DNA from: Candidatus Aminicenantota bacterium
Lineage (GTDB): Bacteria; Acidobacteriota; Aminicenantia; Aminicenantales; Aminicenantaceae
Assembly (NCBI GenBank): GCA_003648765.1
Contig: QMPV01000013.1
Coordinates: 1 to 33,670, forward strand
Direction: 5' to 3'
Length of the DNA stretch: 33,670 bases
In this document: positions 8,070 to 28,021 of the stretch, piece after piece
How positions within the stretch are numbered: the first letter of the stretch is position 1
How the letters are laid out: every line of letters begins with the position of its first letter
The notes under the pieces: model-generated
What the model saw: only the letters and a program-made list of their open reading frames with translations
Database searches by the model: none
What the model was told of the DNA's origin: nothing
Made by a program: the position numbers and the translations under genes

Positions 8070-9474
8070 AGACAAAAGCAAATATGAAGTGATTATTGTG
8101 GGCAGCGGCCTGGCCGGGCTGGTCGCAGCCAATATTCTAGCTGATTATAATTTAAAAATTCTTCTGGTTGACGAAAATATCCATCTGGGAGGTCAACTAT
8201 TACGAAAAATTCCTGAAGAATTAGGAGAGTATTCTGAACTTCATCTGGATAAAGTGAAAAGAGTGGGCTTTGAATTTGTTAATCAAGTCAAGCAGAAAAA
8301 ACTTACCTTGCTTAATAAAACGATCTTAATGGGTATTTACAATGACCGGGAAATTCTCCTGGAGTGGAACCGCCAGAAAGCCTTTTCCTTAAAATATGAT
8401 CTCCTTTTGCTGGCTACAGGGGCTAGAGAAAGATTTATTCCCTTTAAGGGCTGGACTTTACCCGGTGTCTACTCCACGGGATTGGTCCAGGTCTTAATGA
8501 AGAGCTCGGGTGTCTTACCTGCCCGGCGGATGCTTATCGGAGGGACGGGTCTTTTTCTCTTAGCCGCTGGCTATGAATATCTTAAAAATGGTGGCCGCCT
8601 GTTAGGGATTATGGAGCAGAGTCCTTGGTTGAATAAGATAAAATTTATGCCTCAGATCTTTCACCAATTTCCTAAATTCTGGGAAGGAGCTCGGTATCTT
8701 TCTTTAATTTACCGCTCCCGAGTACCGGTCAAATATAAAAGAAAGATTGTTGAAGCCAGGGGGGAAAAACAAGTTGAAGAAGTAGTAGTGGCTCGAGTGG
8801 ATGGCCGCGGCAGAGTAATCAAGGGCACAGAAAGGACATACTCGGTGGAAGCTTTAGCGGTAGGCTATGGCTTTGTGCCTAATATTGAAGCCGCCCAGCT
8901 GGCCGGCTGTGAGCTGGAGTATGCCCGCGAAAAAGGTGGCTGGACGGTAAAAGTAAATGACCGACTGGAAACAAGCGTGCCTGATATTCTGGCGGCGGGA
9001 GAGATTACTGGCATTGGCGGGGGGCAAAAGTCAATTTGTGAGGGACAATTGGCTGCTTATACTATTTTGGAGAAACTAGGCAAGGTGAAGGAAGTACCTT
9101 TTGCCCCACGTTTAAAGAAACTTCAGAGGGAAAGGAAACATCATTTGAGTTTTATGAAGTGTTTCAACTCTCTTTATCAGGTCGAGCCGGCCACCTTGCT
9201 CGACTTACCTGAAGAGACGATTATCTGCCGCTGTGAGAGCGTCACTTTAAAAGATTTAAAAGAAGCCCTGAAAATGGGTTGTCATAATCCCAACGCTCTT
9301 AAAGTGGCCACCCGTTGTGCCATGGGTAAATGCCAGGGCCGGACCTGCACGCCTATCATCTATGAATTGCTTCAGGCGATGTGTCAGAGAGAAGGAGGAG
9401 AAATAGGGCTATTTACGGTACGTCCACCTCTTAAGCCGATCTCCTTGCAGGCTCTTAATAAGTCAAGTAGTTAA
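8062..9474 (+). CDS. NAD(P)/FAD-dependent oxidoreductase subunit with C-terminal BFD-like Fe-S domain (HcnB/SoxA-like)
   Basis: 470 residues. The first nucleotide-binding motif GSGLAG is at residues 14-19. The pyridine-nucleotide-disulphide-oxidoreductase fold continues with LLLLATGARE near 115-123, a second glycine motif IGGTGLF near 159-165, and the late ILAAGEITGIGGG near 309-321 that closes the FAD site. A BFD-like [2Fe-2S] domain follows at about 385-435, with cysteines at 389, 391, 419, 424 and 429. This layout matches HcnB and the central part of SoxA. It overlaps the 2Fe-2S subunit gene by 8 bases. With that protein and the divergent DAO-type protein it forms a plausible three-subunit dehydrogenase. 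Confidence 0.9.
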   Translation: MIEDKSKYEVIIVGSGLAGLVAANILADYNLKILLVDENIHLGGQLLRKIPEELGEYSELHLDKVKRVGFEFVNQVKQKKLTLLNKTILMGIYNDREILLEWNRQKAFSLKYDLLLLATGARERFIPFKGWTLPGVYSTGLVQVLMKSSGVLPARRMLIGGTGLFLLAAGYEYLKNGGRLLGIMEQSPWLNKIKFMPQIFHQFPKFWEGARYLSLIYRSRVPVKYKRKIVEARGEKQVEEVVVARVDGRGRVIKGTERTYSVEALAVGYGFVPNIEAAQLAGCELEYAREKGGWTVKVNDRLETSVPDILAAGEITGIGGGQKSICEGQLAAYTILEKLGKVKEVPFAPRLKKLQRERKHHLSFMKCFNSLYQVEPATLLDLPEETIICRCESVTLKDLKEALKMGCHNPNALKVATRCAMGKCQGRTCTPIIYELLQAMCQREGGEIGLFTVRPPLKPISLQALNKSSS

Positions 9475-15677: not shown

Positions 15678-17774
15678 TTATCGCTCCAGGATTAGATTGC
15701 CGAGAGAATCAACCCATAGATGCCAGGCTGGGCCAACAAAAGTAGTTGAATTGTTTTCTTGAATAAGCGCCGGTCCTTTAATTTCATGTCCGGCGTGGAG
15801 AAGGTGACGCGGCCAGACCGGGCATTGAATCAACCGGAGACCGGTTTGAGGGGTAGTTTTTAACCAGATTTCACGGCGAGAGGCTGTTTGTTCTTTAAGG
15901 GGCGAAGAGGCTTTTTCTAAAGATGGTAGTTGAGGTTTCGGCACTTTGATTATGGCTTTTAATCTGAGATTAACTAATTCCACCGTTTCTTCAGGTTCAC
16001 AATGGCCATAGACTTGCTGGTGGAGTTGATGAAAGGAGGATAGGAGAGAGTTCATCAGCCCTGAAGTGAATTTTTTCCCCGAAAAAGGCACATTTAGTTC
16101 ATAATTTTGCCCTTGATAGCGGAGATCGGCTGAAGGTAAAAGAAGTGTGTTCTTTTGGTGGTCGGGGCTGTGTTGAATCCAGGCTTGGGCTTCTTGGAGC
16201 AGAATATCCAAAATAGATTGAATGGTGCTAAGATTTTTGGTTTCTAAAGATAGGATTCTGGTGCGGACAAAATCCATGGTGATATCCGAAAGAAGAAGGC
16301 CCATGGCTGAAAATAAACCGGGGAAAGGGGGAATAATGATTTTTTTAATGCCCATTTCTTCGGCGAGCTGACAGGCGTGAAGAGGGCCGGCTCCCCCATA
16401 AGCCAAAAGAGTAAATTCCCGAGGGTCATAGCCCTGAGAAATGGAGACAAGGCGTAGGATTCGCAACATGCTGGCGTTGGCGATGGTCAAAATGCCCTGG
16501 GCCGCCTCTCGAACATCAAGCCCAAGGGGACGAGCTATTTTTTTCTGGATAGCCTGACGCGCGGGAACGAGGTGGAGAGATTTCCGTCCGCCCAGCAAAT
16601 CAGCGGGATGAAGATAGCCGAGCAGAAGATAGGCATCGGTCAAGGTTGGTTCCTGGCCGCCCTGACCATAGGCGGCTGGTCCGGGATAAGCCCCGGCACT
16701 GTGAGGGCCGACTTGCAGATGGCCTCCAGGGTCAATCCAAGCAATGCTGCCCGAACCGGCCCCGCACTCAGCTACATCAACCATGGGGAACCGCACCGGG
16801 TAACCGCCTTGATTTTGGCCACCACTGTGAATAGGTCCACCTACTTGATAGTCCACGGTGTATTGTAGCTGGCCGTTAAGGATAAGGCCAGTCTTAGCTG
16901 TTGTTCCTCCCAGGTCAAAGGCGATCACCCGCGGGAGGTGAAGAACTTTAGCCCAATGGGCCACCGCCACTAAACCAGCCGCTGGACCAGACTCGATGAG
17001 TTGGTGAGGATGGCGGGCTGCTTCTCTCGCTGGAAGCATCCCTCCGCCAGAATGCATTAAGAAAACCTCTGAATGAGAAGAGCCCAAACGAGCCAAATTA
17101 TTCAGTAAAGCCTTCAGATAGTTAACCAAAGGAGGAGCCACAGCTGCCGCCACTACGGTAGTACTGGTGCGTTCATATTCGCGAAACTCCGGTGAGACCT
17201 GACTGGAAAGAAAAATGAATTCTTCAGGGAAAAACTCCCGAGCCAGTTGGCTGAGCCGCTTTTCGTGCTGGGGATTAAGAAAGGAGAAGAGAAGCGAGAT
17301 GGCTAAGGCTTCAACTCCCTGACGATGGAGATCTTGTAAAGCTTTCTTGGCGACTGACAAATCAATTTTCTGGATAATTTGACCTTGGGGGCCAATTCTT
17401 TCGGGAATTTCGCGGATCAATTCCCGAGGGACAAGAGGAGGTAGTTTTTCTTGCTGGAGGTTGTAAAGTTCAGGCCTAGACTGGCGTCCGATTTCTAGTA
17501 GATCGCGAAATCCGGCCGTCACCAGGAGGCCTGTTTTGGCGGTTTGCTGCTGAAGAAGCGCGTTGGTCACCAGAGTTGTTCCGTGAACAATAGTTTTCAG
17601 CTCAAATGGCTGCCTTTGAATTGCCTTGAGAATCTCCTCTAATCCTTGAAGAAAGGCTTTTTCTGGGTGGTCAGGGGTAGTGGGGATTTTGAGGGGCCAA
17701 AGCTTATTTTGTTCTTCGTCAAAAAGAAGCACATCGGTAAAAGTGCCCCCCGTATCAATGGCTGCTCTCAGCAT
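15678..17774 (-). CDS. hyuA: Hydantoinase/oxoprolinase family protein, HyuA subunit
   Basis: 698 residues, normal for HyuA (about 650-720). It is an ASKHA-type ATPase: DTGGTFTD at residues 7-14 (phosphate 1), HGTT at 64-67, SGPAAG at 262-267 (adenosine/phosphate 2 region) and DLGGTTAKTG at 287-296. The later VGPHSAGAYPGPAAYGQGG stretch is a family hallmark. HyuA works with HyuB to open a cyclic amide (5-oxoproline, hydantoins) with ATP; related pairs are acetone or acetophenone carboxylases. The ATG overlaps the hyuB stop by 7 bases, and it is the last gene of the operon. The substrate is not readable, and the asnB-like first gene makes a novel lactam or hydantoin plausible. Confidence 0.92.
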   Translation of the reverse strand: MLRAAIDTGGTFTDVLLFDEEQNKLWPLKIPTTPDHPEKAFLQGLEEILKAIQRQPFELKTIVHGTTLVTNALLQQQTAKTGLLVTAGFRDLLEIGRQSRPELYNLQQEKLPPLVPRELIREIPERIGPQGQIIQKIDLSVAKKALQDLHRQGVEALAISLLFSFLNPQHEKRLSQLAREFFPEEFIFLSSQVSPEFREYERTSTTVVAAAVAPPLVNYLKALLNNLARLGSSHSEVFLMHSGGGMLPAREAARHPHQLIESGPAAGLVAVAHWAKVLHLPRVIAFDLGGTTAKTGLILNGQLQYTVDYQVGGPIHSGGQNQGGYPVRFPMVDVAECGAGSGSIAWIDPGGHLQVGPHSAGAYPGPAAYGQGGQEPTLTDAYLLLGYLHPADLLGGRKSLHLVPARQAIQKKIARPLGLDVREAAQGILTIANASMLRILRLVSISQGYDPREFTLLAYGGAGPLHACQLAEEMGIKKIIIPPFPGLFSAMGLLLSDITMDFVRTRILSLETKNLSTIQSILDILLQEAQAWIQHSPDHQKNTLLLPSADLRYQGQNYELNVPFSGKKFTSGLMNSLLSSFHQLHQQVYGHCEPEETVELVNLRLKAIIKVPKPQLPSLEKASSPLKEQTASRREIWLKTTPQTGLRLIQCPVWPRHLLHAGHEIKGPALIQENNSTTFVGPAWHLWVDSLGNLILER

Positions 17775-19531
17775 TTTTCTTGCCCCACTTTTTTCCGGAG
17801 AGATCTGAGTCGCCTGGTGGCGGTATAATTAACTTTTTGGCCCTTAATTTCCACTCCATAGAGTTGGCGGGCTTGAGAGGCGCTTATTTTTCCCGCTCTC
17901 AAGTCTTGAAGCACCTTTTCCGGCGGCCTTTCCAGAGGCGACCCATATCCACCTCCTCCAGCTGTCCGGGCGATAAGGATCTCTCCCGGCTGGAGTAAGA
18001 GACCATTGATTTTAGAAGGGATTTTTTTCCTTTTTTTCTGGGCCGATTGGACAAGAAATTGACCCGGTTGTCCAGGAAGACCGCCTTTTAACCCCCAAGG
18101 ACGGAAACGGTGGCGGTCGGCGTGAGCCGAAAAAAGCACCGGAGTCAGAACCATAATTTCCTTGGCTATGCCTAGCCCCCCTCGGTATTTGCCGGCGCCA
18201 CCAGAGTTCTTTACCAGACCATAACGAAGTACCCGCAAAGGATATTCCGTTTCCAAGGACTCTACAGGTAGATTGGAAGTGTTGGTGATATGGACCTGAA
18301 CCCCATCAAGGCCATCGCGTTGGGAGCGAGCCCCCAGGCCTCCTCCCAGAGCCTCAATGTAGACAAACTCCTGACCAGAGAGTTTTTGGGTGCCGCCAAA
18401 GATCAGAGCAGTGGTGGCGCCATTAGAAGCCGCGATAACTTTCTCCGGGAGGGCTTCACTGAAAGCTCCCAGAAGCACATCAACTACCCGCTGGCAGGTG
18501 TCGGTCCGACCGCCGACGGCAGCTGGTTCTTGAGCGTTGACCAGAGTCCCTGGGGGAGCTAAGATTCTCAGAGGGCGTTGAAAGCCGGCATTCATGGGGA
18601 TATCTGCAGCGAGTAAGGCTTTTATGGTGTAAAAAACAGAAGCTTCCAAGGCCACCTTAACCATATTGACCCCACCTTCGGCTTGGCAGGCGGTACCGGT
18701 AAAATCAAAAAATAAAGAAGGCTGGGGGGCATGTTCGACTCGAATCTTCACCTGGATTTTTAATGGCTTTGGGGAGCAACCGTCATCGTCCAGATAGTCG
18801 TGGTACTTATATTCCCCGGGAGGAATAGCTAGAATTTGTTGACGGAGCCATATTTCACTGTAGTTAAACAAGGCTTGAAGATTCTGGTTGATAGTTTCCC
18901 AACCATAAGAGAGGACAAGTTCTTCTAACCTTTTCGCTCCCCGTTGAAGGGAGGCCAGTTGCGCTCGCAGGTCACCTTCTCTTTCGCGGCGGTGGCGTAA
19001 ATTAGTCAAAATGGCTTCAGCTATTTCCTTTTGGAATTTCCCTTGGCGATAGAGAAACAGAGGGGGGATACGGAAACCTTCTTGGTAGATCTCTGTAGCA
19101 GCTCCGGCGGTGCCGCCTCCGGGGAAAGCTCCGCCAATGTCCGCCCAATGAGCAATATTGGCCACAAAACCCACCAGTTGGTGAGAGGCAAAAACTGGCT
19201 GGACCAGAGTGACGTCAGGCAGATGCGAGCCCCCGCCTTGAAATGGGTCATTGGTGATAATGACATCCCCAGGTGTAAGAGATGCTAAGGGAAATTTCTC
19301 GCAGATTTTTTCCATTAAACCCAGCATAGAGCCGAGATGGATAGGGATATGTTCAGCCAAGGCCACTAGTTCTCCCTGGGAAGAGAAAAGGGCACAGGAA
19401 CAGTCGCGGCGTTCTTTGATGTTGGTGGAATAGGCTGTTCGGATTAAGGTGACACCCATTTCCTCGGCAATACCCTGCAAGGCATGCCGCAGGACTTCGG
19501 TAGTAATGGGGTCTACGTGGGAGTAGCTCAT
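17768..19531 (-). CDS. hyuB: Hydantoinase B/oxoprolinase family protein, HyuB subunit
   Basis: 587 residues, slightly longer than the common 520-580. The N terminus DPITTEVLRHALQGIAEEMG with IKERRDCSCALF is typical. Conserved NDPFQGGGSHLPDVTL near 93-108, TGTACQAEGGVN in the middle and GGRTDTCQR near 345 mark the HyuB fold. It is the catalytic partner of HyuA. The ATG overlaps the preceding asnB-like stop as ATGA, and its own stop overlaps the hyuA start, so all three proteins are translationally coupled. The ribosome site is weak, as expected for a coupled start. The C terminus has a glycine-rich AGGGGYGSPLERPPEKV motif common in the family. Confidence 0.92.
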   Translation of the reverse strand: MSYSHVDPITTEVLRHALQGIAEEMGVTLIRTAYSTNIKERRDCSCALFSSQGELVALAEHIPIHLGSMLGLMEKICEKFPLASLTPGDVIITNDPFQGGGSHLPDVTLVQPVFASHQLVGFVANIAHWADIGGAFPGGGTAGAATEIYQEGFRIPPLFLYRQGKFQKEIAEAILTNLRHRREREGDLRAQLASLQRGAKRLEELVLSYGWETINQNLQALFNYSEIWLRQQILAIPPGEYKYHDYLDDDGCSPKPLKIQVKIRVEHAPQPSLFFDFTGTACQAEGGVNMVKVALEASVFYTIKALLAADIPMNAGFQRPLRILAPPGTLVNAQEPAAVGGRTDTCQRVVDVLLGAFSEALPEKVIAASNGATTALIFGGTQKLSGQEFVYIEALGGGLGARSQRDGLDGVQVHITNTSNLPVESLETEYPLRVLRYGLVKNSGGAGKYRGGLGIAKEIMVLTPVLFSAHADRHRFRPWGLKGGLPGQPGQFLVQSAQKKRKKIPSKINGLLLQPGEILIARTAGGGGYGSPLERPPEKVLQDLRAGKISASQARQLYGVEIKGQKVNYTATRRLRSLRKKVGQEKC

Positions 19532-20997
19532 ATATGTTTGGTTCGACCTATTTCTTCCAGAGGCACCTTCTGGCCAAAAAAGCTTTTAAAGATTTTATAG
19601 TAGAGTAATTCTTCTTTGGAGCGAAGATGAAAATTTTCTTTTATGATCCGGGAGTTAACAAATTCTTCATCACTTATTTTTTCTTCAGCGTAATCAGCTA
19701 TCATCTCCCAGACACCCGCGCCCTGCCAGAATTTTTCTTTCCGCCGGTTAACTACTTTTGCCGGCAAGTATTCAGCCACAGCTTGGCGCAGAGGCCATTT
19801 CTCAATCTTGTCTTGGTCATAAATCTTCCAGCGGGCAGGAATAGCCAAGGCCAAGCGGACTACTTCCGGATCAAGGAAGGGAGTTACCACCCCATGTCCA
19901 TGAGCTATGGCTGAGCGGTCTACCCGTTGAAGAGCTGTATTGTGGAGAGCAGCTATAGCTTCTTGAATACAGATGGTCAGTTCTACATCACTCTGACAGT
20001 TTTTCTGGTAATCATAACCGGCGAAAAGTTCATCTCCCCCTTCACCAGAGAGGATGAAGGCAACGTGCTCAGCCGCCATCTCGGCGACCAGGTAATTACC
20101 AACAGCACTGCGGATAAGCGGAGCATCAAAAGATTCAAGATGATAAATGACTTTATCCAACACCGCCAGGGTTTCCTGGAGAGTATAAAGACGTTCATGA
20201 TGGATGGAGCCAATATGGTCGGCTACCAACCGAGCATGTTCGAGATCAGGGGCACCTTTAACTCCGGCGGAAAAGGTATGGAGGTGGGCAATATGATTTT
20301 TGGCTAGGGCCGCCATGGCACTGGAGTCAATACCACCGCTTAACCACACTCCAATGGCTGTTTCCGAGGCAGGAATGGCCCTCTGGACGGCTTTGTCTAG
20401 GCAAGAATAGAGTTGACGAGCGCTGTCTTGAGGGGAAGCAAAGTTAATATCAGCCGGAAGATATGGTTTGAAGGGGAATAGACCCGAATTGGCGATAAAA
20501 AAGTGACCCGGAGGGAATTCACGGACTTCATCCACCACATCAACCAGAGCTTTTATTTCCGAGGCGAAACAAAAGTGGCTGTGGTGAAAGCCATAATAAA
20601 GAGGGCGGACTCCCAGTCGATCGCGAGCCAGAACAAGGGTATCAGAGGTAACCATGGCTAGAGCGTAGTCACCTTCCAGGTGGTCAAATAATTCTCCACC
20701 TGATTGGGCCCAGGAAGCCAGGAGGGCTTCTTTAAGGTTATTCGCATTTTCCCCTTCAGAGCCGGGCAACTTTTCGGGATGAGTGAGGCGACCGTCCATG
20801 ATAATATTTGTTTCCCGGGATGAATTATCTAAAGGGCCAGGCTCTTCAGGCAGGTTGACTAGCTTGACCGTTCCCAAAGTAGCTTGAGAGCCTGACCAGA
20901 TATCACCTAGTTGAGAGTTTTTATGGGTCATTTTTTGGAGCATCTTTTTGACCACCTCTTGACCATTGGCCGAGAGAATACCTGCAATCCGTGCCAT
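19528..20997 (-). CDS. Asparagine-synthetase-like ATP-dependent amide ligase lacking the glutaminase cysteine
   Basis: 489 residues, shorter than typical AsnB (about 550-630). The N-terminal half keeps the class II glutaminase fold outline (DRLGVRPLYYG at 126-136), but the catalytic start MCGIAG is MARIAG, so Cys1 is absent. The glutamine-binding NGEIYN region reads MDGRLTH near 68-74. The synthetase half is intact: PP-loop SGGIDSS at 220-226, SGEGGDELFAGY at 318-329 and the RRKEKFWQGAG loop with the probable catalytic lysine near 420. AsnB homologues without Cys1 include beta-lactam synthetase and carbapenam synthetase, which adenylate a carboxylate and form an amide without glutamine. The start is secure: GGGAGGT lies just upstream. 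It is first in the operon with hyuB and hyuA. Confidence 0.9.
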   Translation of the reverse strand: MARIAGILSANGQEVVKKMLQKMTHKNSQLGDIWSGSQATLGTVKLVNLPEEPGPLDNSSRETNIIMDGRLTHPEKLPGSEGENANNLKEALLASWAQSGGELFDHLEGDYALAMVTSDTLVLARDRLGVRPLYYGFHHSHFCFASEIKALVDVVDEVREFPPGHFFIANSGLFPFKPYLPADINFASPQDSARQLYSCLDKAVQRAIPASETAIGVWLSGGIDSSAMAALAKNHIAHLHTFSAGVKGAPDLEHARLVADHIGSIHHERLYTLQETLAVLDKVIYHLESFDAPLIRSAVGNYLVAEMAAEHVAFILSGEGGDELFAGYDYQKNCQSDVELTICIQEAIAALHNTALQRVDRSAIAHGHGVVTPFLDPEVVRLALAIPARWKIYDQDKIEKWPLRQAVAEYLPAKVVNRRKEKFWQGAGVWEMIADYAEEKISDEEFVNSRIIKENFHLRSKEELLYYKIFKSFFGQKVPLEEIGRTKHI

Positions 20998-21794: not shown

Positions 21795-22091
21795 TTAGTT
21801 CTTTTTTTTCTTCAAACTTAGAAGCCGCCAGCAGGCTACTCCCAGAATAATGGTTAGGACCCCGAATAAGACCCCTCCGCGCAAGGCAGCTATGGGTTCA
21901 TTTTCTCCCAGACTGGTGCCCACGAAAGCCAGAGTGAAGCCGGCCAGGCTGAACCAGAGCAGGATAAGCAACCATTTCCACCAGGTCAACTTGATTCCCC
22001 GGTCCTCCGCCCAGGTTTTTATTCCCAGAATCACCAAGCAGGTGAGAATACCTTCGATGAACCAGAAGAAGCCGCTATTAAAAATTGACAT
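21795..22091 (-). CDS. rdhB: Reductive dehalogenase membrane-anchor protein (RdhB-like)
   Basis: 98 residues, highly hydrophobic, with three predicted membrane helices at about 6-24, 38-58 and 68-90. The first loop has the charged EDRG and the second helix begins with WWKW. Size, helix number and position directly behind rdhA match RdhB proteins, which tether the exported catalytic subunit to the outer face of the inner membrane. The ribosome site AAGGAGG overlaps the rdhA stop codon (TAAGGAGG), and the gap between the genes is 12 bases, so translation is coupled. Sequence conservation within RdhB is low, so the call rests mainly on topology and context. Confidence 0.82.
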   Translation of the reverse strand: MSIFNSGFFWFIEGILTCLVILGIKTWAEDRGIKLTWWKWLLILLWFSLAGFTLAFVGTSLGENEPIAALRGGVLFGVLTIILGVACWRLLSLKKKKN

Positions 22092-22103
22092 GGCTAGACC
22101 TCC

Positions 22104-23570
22104 TTACTCGAATTCGATAAAGTCTTCGGTCCGCAACCACCAGGGAGGACGCCGATAGGAGGCGTTTTTACCTCCGAGGGAAGGAATGTAATAGTCTTGC
22201 GGGTTGGGTCCAGGATAGAAGATTTTTTGCAGTTGGGTTAAGGCGTCATGAGACAGGCCGGTGGGGTCATTGGAACTGAGATTAAGAGCGGCTCGATGGA
22301 GCCAATTAGCTTTGCGGGTATAGGGGCAGACGGCGATACAAAGGCGACAGCCCATGTTGCCGAGATTAGAATTCCAGAAATTGTAGCATTTAGCGGCGTG
22401 CAGTTGCCATTTGCGATAGCCCCGGACAACTACTTTATCTCCTTTGGTGATGGCTCCGCTAGGGCACTGTTCGGCACAAATTTTGCAAGTTTTACAAAAA
22501 GATTCCACCCCGAATTTGATGGGCTTGTCCGGCTTCAAAGGAATATTGGTCGTCACCACCGCGGCTCTAAAATTTGGTCCGAGCTCAGGAGTAATTACAA
22601 TGGAACTGCGGGCCTGTTCGCCTAGTCCGGCGTCGATCATAATCGGGGGCACCATTAAATCATAGGAATAACCAGGGGTGTGCGGCCGGGCGGCGTAACC
22701 CAGATATTTAATGAAAGCCGCCAGGCGATAGGCGATAATCCGAGAAATAGAATAAGCGTCTTCAGAGGTGCCGTAGTTGGGATTAGCGTACATCGGGTCC
22801 CAGGACATAGGTGTGCCAACCACGATAGCGTATTCCCAGTGTGAAGGGATTTCTAGAGGCTGGTTGGGGTCCAGACCTCGGCCTGGAATGGGGTATTGAA
22901 ACACCCAATCGGGGTTGAGACGAGCGATCCCGACCAGCGTGGCTCCTAGTTCGTGAGCGATTTTTTTGATAAGACGCGAGGTTTTGGCCGGGCTTTTAAG
23001 CTTGTAAGGCCGGCGCAGTTTTTCTTGGCCACGACCCCAACCTACGTAGGGAAAATCGGCTTTTTCTGGAGGTTCAGTTATTCGAGGTGGAACCACCGCT
23101 GCCATAGCCTCCGACCAGGCTTCAGCCAGCAGAAAAGTGCGGCCATATTTTTCCTGGTCAGCCATTAGTTTTGGTCTCAGGACCTTGATATTCTCCAGAT
23201 CAAGTTCTAAATCTTCGGGATGTTCCTGATAATATTTTTGAAGATGCTCTGGTAAGCTCTCAATTCTCGGGTCTTGCCGCCAATAACGCACAAAAGTCGG
23301 CAAGCGAGAAAAAACTATCTCGCTGCGCGGATCTACGCGGCGGGTCGGCCCGACTTTTTCATAAGGAGGCTCATTCACCGTAAAGCGGTGACGAGGGAAA
23401 GTTTGGTCACCTCCTTCAAAGGTTTTCCAGCCGGTGTAACTGGCCGGGTCCCGGCCAGCTTCATAACCAAAGAAGCCCAGTCCACTGAGTCCCAAGACGG
23501 CACTGGTGGCTCCAGTGGCTTTCAGAAAACTCCGGCGGGAAAACTTTGTTTTGGGCTTATTCTGCTCCAT
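22104..23570 (-). CDS. rdhA: Reductive dehalogenase catalytic subunit (RdhA), Tat-exported
   Basis: 488 residues, normal for RdhA. A Tat signal SRRSFLK is at residues 11-17, followed by a hydrophobic stretch to about 36. The corrinoid-binding nitroreductase-like domain covers about 195-345, with the family block PPIMIDAGLGEQAR (308-321) and ITPELGPNFR (326-335). Two [4Fe-4S] clusters follow: C359-x2-C362-x2-C365-x3-C369-P, and C395 with C408-x2-C411-x3-C415-P. These enzymes use a cobamide to remove halogens from organic compounds as a respiratory electron sink. GGAGG precedes the ATG, and rdhB follows 12 bases after the stop. No regulator, cobamide or second rdh gene is in the window. The substrate is unknown. 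Epoxyqueuosine reductase is excluded by the Tat signal, the block order and the anchor gene. Confidence 0.92.
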   Translation of the reverse strand: MEQNKPKTKFSRRSFLKATGATSAVLGLSGLGFFGYEAGRDPASYTGWKTFEGGDQTFPRHRFTVNEPPYEKVGPTRRVDPRSEIVFSRLPTFVRYWRQDPRIESLPEHLQKYYQEHPEDLELDLENIKVLRPKLMADQEKYGRTFLLAEAWSEAMAAVVPPRITEPPEKADFPYVGWGRGQEKLRRPYKLKSPAKTSRLIKKIAHELGATLVGIARLNPDWVFQYPIPGRGLDPNQPLEIPSHWEYAIVVGTPMSWDPMYANPNYGTSEDAYSISRIIAYRLAAFIKYLGYAARPHTPGYSYDLMVPPIMIDAGLGEQARSSIVITPELGPNFRAAVVTTNIPLKPDKPIKFGVESFCKTCKICAEQCPSGAITKGDKVVVRGYRKWQLHAAKCYNFWNSNLGNMGCRLCIAVCPYTRKANWLHRAALNLSSNDPTGLSHDALTQLQKIFYPGPNPQDYYIPSLGGKNASYRRPPWWLRTEDFIEFE

Positions 23571-23662: not shown

Positions 23663-23915
23663 ATTGAATTTAAGTGGCAGATTGGATGAAGGCAGCTTTT
23701 TAGTTGATTGAACATTTCAAGCCGATTTTACGTAACTAATAAATAAAGAGCCCTGGGAAGAAGAGAATTAGTGTAGTTTCTGATCAGCAGTTTTGGTTTA
23801 AAGAAGAACGGAAATTGAAGATCCAGTTGGTTGAACTTGGTGGATGTATCCCTAATTACGTCAGAGGTGAAAGGGAAGACCTTGTACGTGGAAAATAGCT
23901 GTAGAGATCTAACAA

Positions 23916-24057
23916 AGTGTCCGACACCTAATGAAAGGTGTCAGACACCACAATTAAGGTGTCAGACACACAAATGTAGGTGTCAGACACCCAAGATTTA
24001 TGCGACACAATTGTAAGTATGTGATATCAAAATGCTGGACACAGTATCTGACCCCAA
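23916..24057 (+). repeat. Palindrome array 1, exact 21-bp period
   Basis: Copies of the 13-bp palindrome GGTGTCAGACACC or close variants begin at 23916, 23937, 23958 and 23979. Each is followed by an 8-base spacer that differs between units. At the next register (24000) the palindrome is replaced by ATGCGACAC, and at 24021 by a degenerate GTGATATCA. The array closes with GACACAGTATCTGACCCCAA at 24038-24057. The same elements recur in the same order and orientation in array 2. It encodes no supported protein. Confidence 0.85.
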
Positions 24058-27877: not shown

Positions 27878-28021
27878 ATTGGCGGTGTCCATATTAGCGG
27901 TGTCAGACACCACCGAGACGGTGTCTGACACCCAAAAATTATGCGACACGCCATACTTGTGGGTGTCTGACACCGAAATGTTGGTTGGCACCAAAATGAT
28001 AGACACAGTATTTGCCCCCAA
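27878..28021 (+). repeat. Palindrome array 2, exact 21-bp period
   Basis: GGTGTCAGACACC at 27899 and GGTGTCTGACACC at 27920 and 27962 keep a strict 21-base register. A half-site GGTGTCC lies within the register starting 27878. ATGCGACAC fills the register at 27941 and a degenerate GGTTGGCACC the one at 27983. The array closes with GACACAGTATTTGCCCCCAA at 28002-28021, 18 of 20 identical to the end of array 1. It lies on the same strand as array 1, 3,964 bases further on. Confidence 0.85.

Follow-up and report, generated by a model that had tools for sequence, protein, structure and literature searches.

Introduction

Reductive dehalogenases are enzymes expected to remove halogens from organic molecules, as a form of respiration. 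In the PceA2B2 structure of D. hafniense, the electrons come from menaquinol. The rdhAB locus described here resembles PceA-PceB of D. hafniense (8q4h, a menaquinol:organohalide oxidoreductase) and PceA of S. multivorans (4uqu) in its Tat signal and corrinoid fold, and it shares with PceA/PceB the two [4Fe-4S] motifs, the Tyr/Arg/Trp set and a small three-helix RdhB with an E-x-E motif. However, its RdhA is about a third identical to PceA over the core and belongs to a separate clade with a long stem, and, unlike in the PceA systems, no rdhC or rdhT adjoins the operon. Mutagenesis links both Y246 and R305 of PceA to dehalogenation, and it has been argued that RdhAB alone can take electrons from menaquinol (PMC10624902).

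The cytoplasmic, catabolic enzymes NpRdhA and BhbA have the core fold, the Fe-S motifs and the catalytic Tyr in common with the present RdhA, but they lack a Tat signal and RdhB, are fused to extra domains and fall in another clade. In addition, NpRdhA has Lys and Arg where the clade of the present RdhA has Arg and Trp. The hybrid reductive dehalogenases (Atashgahi 2019, PMC6797604) are found in the genome and class that also hold the present RdhA and are ~33% identical to it over the core, but they have no Tat signal, have their catalytic domain joined to RdhB-like helices and form a clade of their own. Aminicenantes rdhA genes as such are already known, as putative rdhA genes of this lineage were reported, in the form of counts, from MAGs of deep-sea seeps; the clade with Tat signal and RdhB is not resolved in the accessible part of that report (PMC6472368).

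Results

Organization of the rdhAB operon

The window, i.e., the whole stretch of DNA analysed, comprises 33,670 nt and corresponds to the entire contig C13 of the host genome (G000), a 2.77-Mb Aminicenantes MAG of 288 contigs that is 92% complete. Open reading frames and their translations showed that the minus strand of positions 21795-23570 consists of exactly two tandem genes, rdhA followed by rdhB (Table 1), as the original prediction had proposed. The junction between them reads GAGTAAGGAGGTCTAGCCATG, with the coupling pattern TAAGGAGG..ATG, which confirms the proposed overlap of the rdhA stop codon with the rdhB ribosome site. The operon had also been described as complete. Both genes are intact, but a third gene, rdhC, which is present in about half of the relatives, is missing.

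The neighbours on the contig encode hydantoinase/caprolactamase-like A and B proteins, an asparagine-synthase homologue, a beta-lactamase-fold protein, a rhamnulokinase and a fucose permease. Neither a regulator nor a cobamide gene nor another rdh was found on the 33.7-kb contig. The earlier statement that no second rdh is nearby holds for the contig but not for the genome, where a second rdhA lies on contig C49 (L031:8589-9998). This gene encodes a hybrid-type enzyme that has transmembrane helices at its N-terminus and lacks a Tat motif; it has relatives in a genome of the same genus (G154) and in a family member (G162).

Two further observations were made on the contig. At 15678-20997, the hydantoinase A/B-like (caprolactamase-like) pair adjoins the 489-aa asparagine-synthase homologue, an order that is kept in G154; these genes possibly belong to one pathway. 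The 13-nt palindrome GGTGTCAGACACC forms two clusters (23914-23991 and 27899-27974), with 13 matches in the window, both strands counted, versus 0.02 expected. Copies are scattered in a few other contigs of the host genome, and none was found in the syntenic G154 contig. The clusters are possibly REP-like elements.

Table 1. Positions and supporting evidence of the features of the rdhAB locus (window coordinates, unless a different locus is named).
Feature	Position	Strand	Evidence
rdhA, catalytic subunit, 488 aa	22104..23570	-	TIGR02486, PDB sequence matches, Foldseek
rdhB, three-helix membrane anchor with E-x-E, 98 aa	21795..22091	-	rdhA-adjacent in relatives; profile matches PceB
Overlap of the rdhA stop (TAA) with the rdhB ribosome site (TAAGGAGG)	22092..22106	-	sequence
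Tat motif RRSFLK, residues 12-17	23520..23537	-	PF10518, 24.6 bits; R12/R13 invariant in alignment A1
Catalytic Tyr273 (PceA Y246, NpRdhA Y426)	22752..22754	-	Tyr in 53/53 clade rows
Catalytic Arg335 (PceA R305, NpRdhA K488)	22566..22568	-	Arg in 52/52 clade rows with a letter there
[4Fe-4S] motif 1, CKTCKICAEQC (CX2CX2CX3CP)	22464..22496	-	four Cys invariant in clade
[4Fe-4S] motif 2, C395...C408xxC411xxxC415 (CX12CX2CX3CP)	22326..22388	-	four Cys invariant
RdhB E-x-E loop (E63, E65; PceB E61, E63)	21897..21905	-	invariant in 21 aligned RdhBs
rdhB 3'-end relic, locus of operon loss	L152 (G154:C37) 8544-8677

RdhA has the motifs and fold of a reductive dehalogenase

RdhA matched TIGR02486 with 187.4 bits (curated cut-off 160.35). 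All 33 rows of its alignment A2 also matched this model, and the best PDB sequence matches of RdhA were PceA and NpRdhA, both at ~1e-42. The Tat signal and both [4Fe-4S] motifs that had been predicted for this protein were borne out by RRSFLK and the intact Cys motifs. The active-site Tyr, Arg and Trp and the eight Fe-S Cys residues are invariant across the clade rows, and the Tyr at position 273 is also found in all three structure references. H425 is likewise invariant; both this residue and the E-x-E pair of RdhB were aligned by eye with the menaquinone-pocket residues described in PMC10624902.

An AlphaFold2 model of RdhA, built from 33 natural sequences, had a pLDDT of 82 and a pTM of 0.83. 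In a Foldseek search of the PDB with this model, the first 36 matches were all reductive dehalogenases (E ~1e-19), followed by the epoxyqueuosine reductase QueG at 1e-7. TM-scores to solved reductive dehalogenases were 0.40-0.61, with the N-terminus and some loops of the model being uncertain. Thus, TIGR02486, the Fe-S motifs, the catalytic Tyr with Arg/Lys and the fold all identify the protein as RdhA, which from sequence and model would bind a corrinoid.

Other assignments were rejected. QueG was ruled out because the match to TIGR00276 (47 bits) was below the cut-off of 200, whereas the hybrid type with fused transmembrane helices and the catabolic NpRdhA/BhbA type were both ruled out by the Tat signal, the separate rdhB and the place of the protein in the tree. 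The Tat signal (RRxFxK) and the adjacent three-helix rdhB with E-x-E are those of a respiratory-type RdhAB.

RdhB is conserved next to RdhA

In 50 of 52 relatives, rdhA is followed by a gene for RdhB, and in one of the other two the contig ends at this point. This count rests on tblastn, as ORF calling alone missed several rdhB genes. The RdhB of the window has three hydrophobic segments, and G62-E63-x-E65 is invariant among 21 aligned RdhBs. When the profile of these 21 proteins was searched against the PDB (177,635 sequences, E<=10), the single match was D. hafniense PceB (8q4h_C). The profile also matched the RdhB of Dehalococcoides (42 bits) and of Sulfurospirillum (24 bits).

A distinct clade that PF13486 does not detect

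One scan of named genomes yielded 52 related loci, with identities of 39-88%. By MAG names, they come from about a dozen phyla: Aminicenantes, Planctomycetota, Bacteroidota, Ignavibacteriota, Myxococcota, Desulfobacterota, Gemmatimonadota, KSB1, Latescibacterota, Zixiibacteriota, Krumholzibacteriota and Chloroflexota. One member is from a strain, N1Y90 (MCCC 1H00481 = KCTC 72190), which has been reported as a coastal-sediment Carboxylicivirga; its rdhA is 45% identical and is accompanied by rdhB, rdhC and a MarR gene. The nearest relative of the window RdhA (L051, 88% identical) belongs to Aminicenantes HyVt-101. A search of plasmid records found no close relative, the best near-full-length match being 27%.

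In the tree, 47 clade rows lie on one side of a branch with support of 100/100 and a stem of ~1.0 change per column, apart from the hybrids (100/98), from NpRdhA and BhbA, and from the PceA/Dehalococcoides types. The protein therefore falls inside RdhA when placed against the characterised groups, as had been expected, and belongs to a well-supported, distinct and uncharacterised RdhA clade. QueG was tried as an outgroup, but the root then fell inside the clade because of the very long QueG branch; the tree is therefore presented unrooted. Phyla are interleaved within the clade, which suggests transfer, although MAG binning errors and paralogues could cause part of this pattern.

At about half of the clade loci, rdhC (FMN_bind and Fer4_5) is found downstream, and ApbE or MarR genes are present at some; all three belong to the known rdh accessory gene set (PMC5928378, PMC12090745). 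A proline specific to the clade, Pro299, lies in the loop close to PceA N272. Of note, a single contig (L039, G090:C748, 4780-8915) carries two Tat-type rdhAs that belong to different clades, and each of them is accompanied by a separate rdhB-like gene.

PF13486, which is used in surveys of organohalide respiration (PMC12090745), matched none of the 33 clade alignment rows at E<=0.01. The classical RdhAs used as controls (L001, L004 and L008) were matched, and the NpRdhA-like row L009 and the hybrid row L031 were also missed. This failure is a limit of the model; PF13486 is a survey diagnostic and not a defining property. A PF13486 search of the host genome returned nothing and the controls were equally silent; TIGR02486 was therefore used for this genome.

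The operon is under selection and was lost in a close relative

Comparison with L051 gave a dN of 0.071 and a dS of 1.86 (dN/dS ~0.04), and the operon contains no frameshift. Purifying selection on it is strong. Taken together, the window operon is a genuine, intact and selected rdhAB pair of the respiratory type.

The same-genus genome G154 is syntenic on both flanks, so that the contig is correctly binned, but 636 bp replace the 3.35 kb of the window. These 636 bp are not an empty insertion site, as they hold the 3' end of rdhB (last ~30 codons: LPRGRIVFGVLTIILGVAGRRLLGLAKKRN versus ALRGGVLFGVLTIILGVACWRLLSLKKKKN in the window). The local score of this alignment was 35, whereas the highest score among 100 dinucleotide shuffles was 23. 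The common ancestor therefore already had the operon, which was deleted in G154 rather than freshly inserted in the window. Its loss in one genome of the same genus indicates that it is dispensable. The downstream flanks of the L051 operon differ from those of the window, and the operon has therefore also changed place.

Cofactor and electron supply in the host genome

Absences from the host MAG are weak evidence because ~8% of the genome is missing. TatC is present. Corrinoid-acquisition genes, which had been named as a check of the prediction, were found in the form of a BtuFCD-like transporter, whose permease has BtuC as its best match, below the cut-off. Corrinoid enzymes are represented by corrinoid methyltransferase proteins and a methylmalonyl-CoA mutase. 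Neither the window nor the BtuFCD-like locus contains a cobalamin riboswitch; one is present in G162, of the same family.

On the electron side, the genome encodes complex I and, next to HdrA-like genes, a Vhu/Mvh-like [NiFe] hydrogenase. Use of quinones is suggested, at the sequence level, by a QmoC-like protein and by a MenA-like prenyltransferase just below the cut-off (95 versus 102 bits). Of the genes named for the check, a BtuFCD-like importer and a hydrogenase were found, but the quinone markers MenD and MqnA and the synthesis gene CobS were not found in the 92%-complete MAG, and neither was RdhC.

Discussion

Accessory organohalide respiration is the most likely function suggested by these sequences. 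The sugar and amino-acid genes nearby and the fact that a same-genus relative has lost the operon agree with the accessory trait originally proposed. We consider it probable that the operon is a complete respiratory-type rdhAB that reduces a natural organohalide, with a Tat-exported, RdhB-docked enzyme carrying a corrinoid and two [4Fe-4S] clusters. RdhA would take up these cofactors and, once exported via Tat, attach to RdhB on the outside of the cytoplasmic membrane. The interface of the two proteins would be the entry point of the electrons, which would travel over the two clusters to Co(I); with the Tyr/Arg pair, hydrogen would then take the place of the halogen in a natural organohalide, probably a marine one. 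Points against this reading are that MenD, MqnA, CobS and RdhC were not found in the MAG, that no regulator lies nearby and that the loss in G154 marks the operon as dispensable. Dehalogenation, the sources of corrinoid and electrons, and energy conservation are what we infer for this system.

The clade could instead have left dehalogenation, its members being membrane-anchored corrinoid reductases for a non-halogenated acceptor, e.g., one with another leaving group. The long stem (~1 change per column), the clade-specific Pro299 near PceA N272 and the lack of a characterised member would fit this, and QueG shows that the wider superfamily has other substrates. However, the catalytic Tyr and Arg, linked to dehalogenation in PceA (PMC10624902), never vary, relatives carry the usual rdhC, MarR and ApbE companions, and many come from marine or saline samples according to record titles, which makes such a change of substrate unlikely. 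It is similarly improbable that dehalogenation serves as an electron sink or as detoxification without energy conservation, by which a fermenter sheds the reductant of its cytosolic hydrogenase/Hdr system. If the sink were cytoplasmic, exporting the enzyme via Tat and conserving RdhB would be wasteful, and the menaquinol-pocket residues H425 and E-x-E have been retained, although the undetected MenD, MqnA and RdhC, the Vhu/Mvh-like hydrogenase with its HdrA-like proteins and the deletion of the operon in G154 would fit such a sink.

That the operon is decaying or mis-binned, and functionless in this genome, is very hard to reconcile with a dN/dS of ~0.04 versus L051, the absence of frameshifts and the synteny of both flanks with the same-genus genome, even if the rdhB relic in G154 and the undetected CobS point that way. 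Organohalide respiration as an accessory trait thus remains the preferred reading. More speculatively, the locus may represent a deep, coherent Tat/RdhB clade that PF13486 does not see and that spans about a dozen sediment phyla, most of them uncultured. Such a clade might have a substrate range of its own, either natural marine organohalides or an acceptor without halogen, and in Aminicenantes that lack MenD, MqnA and RdhC the electrons might arrive by a route other than menaquinol.

No paper describing the clade was found in the open-access literature, of which coverage was incomplete. The same-genus locus with the rdhB relic documents the loss of this trait between close relatives, and the cultured member Carboxylicivirga N1Y90 makes the substrate of the clade testable. 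Since PF13486 matched none of its 33 alignment rows, Pfam-based surveys miss this Tat/RdhB clade of Planctomycetota, Aminicenantes, Bacteroidota, Myxococcota and others, and the halogen-cycling potential of anoxic sediments may be undercounted.
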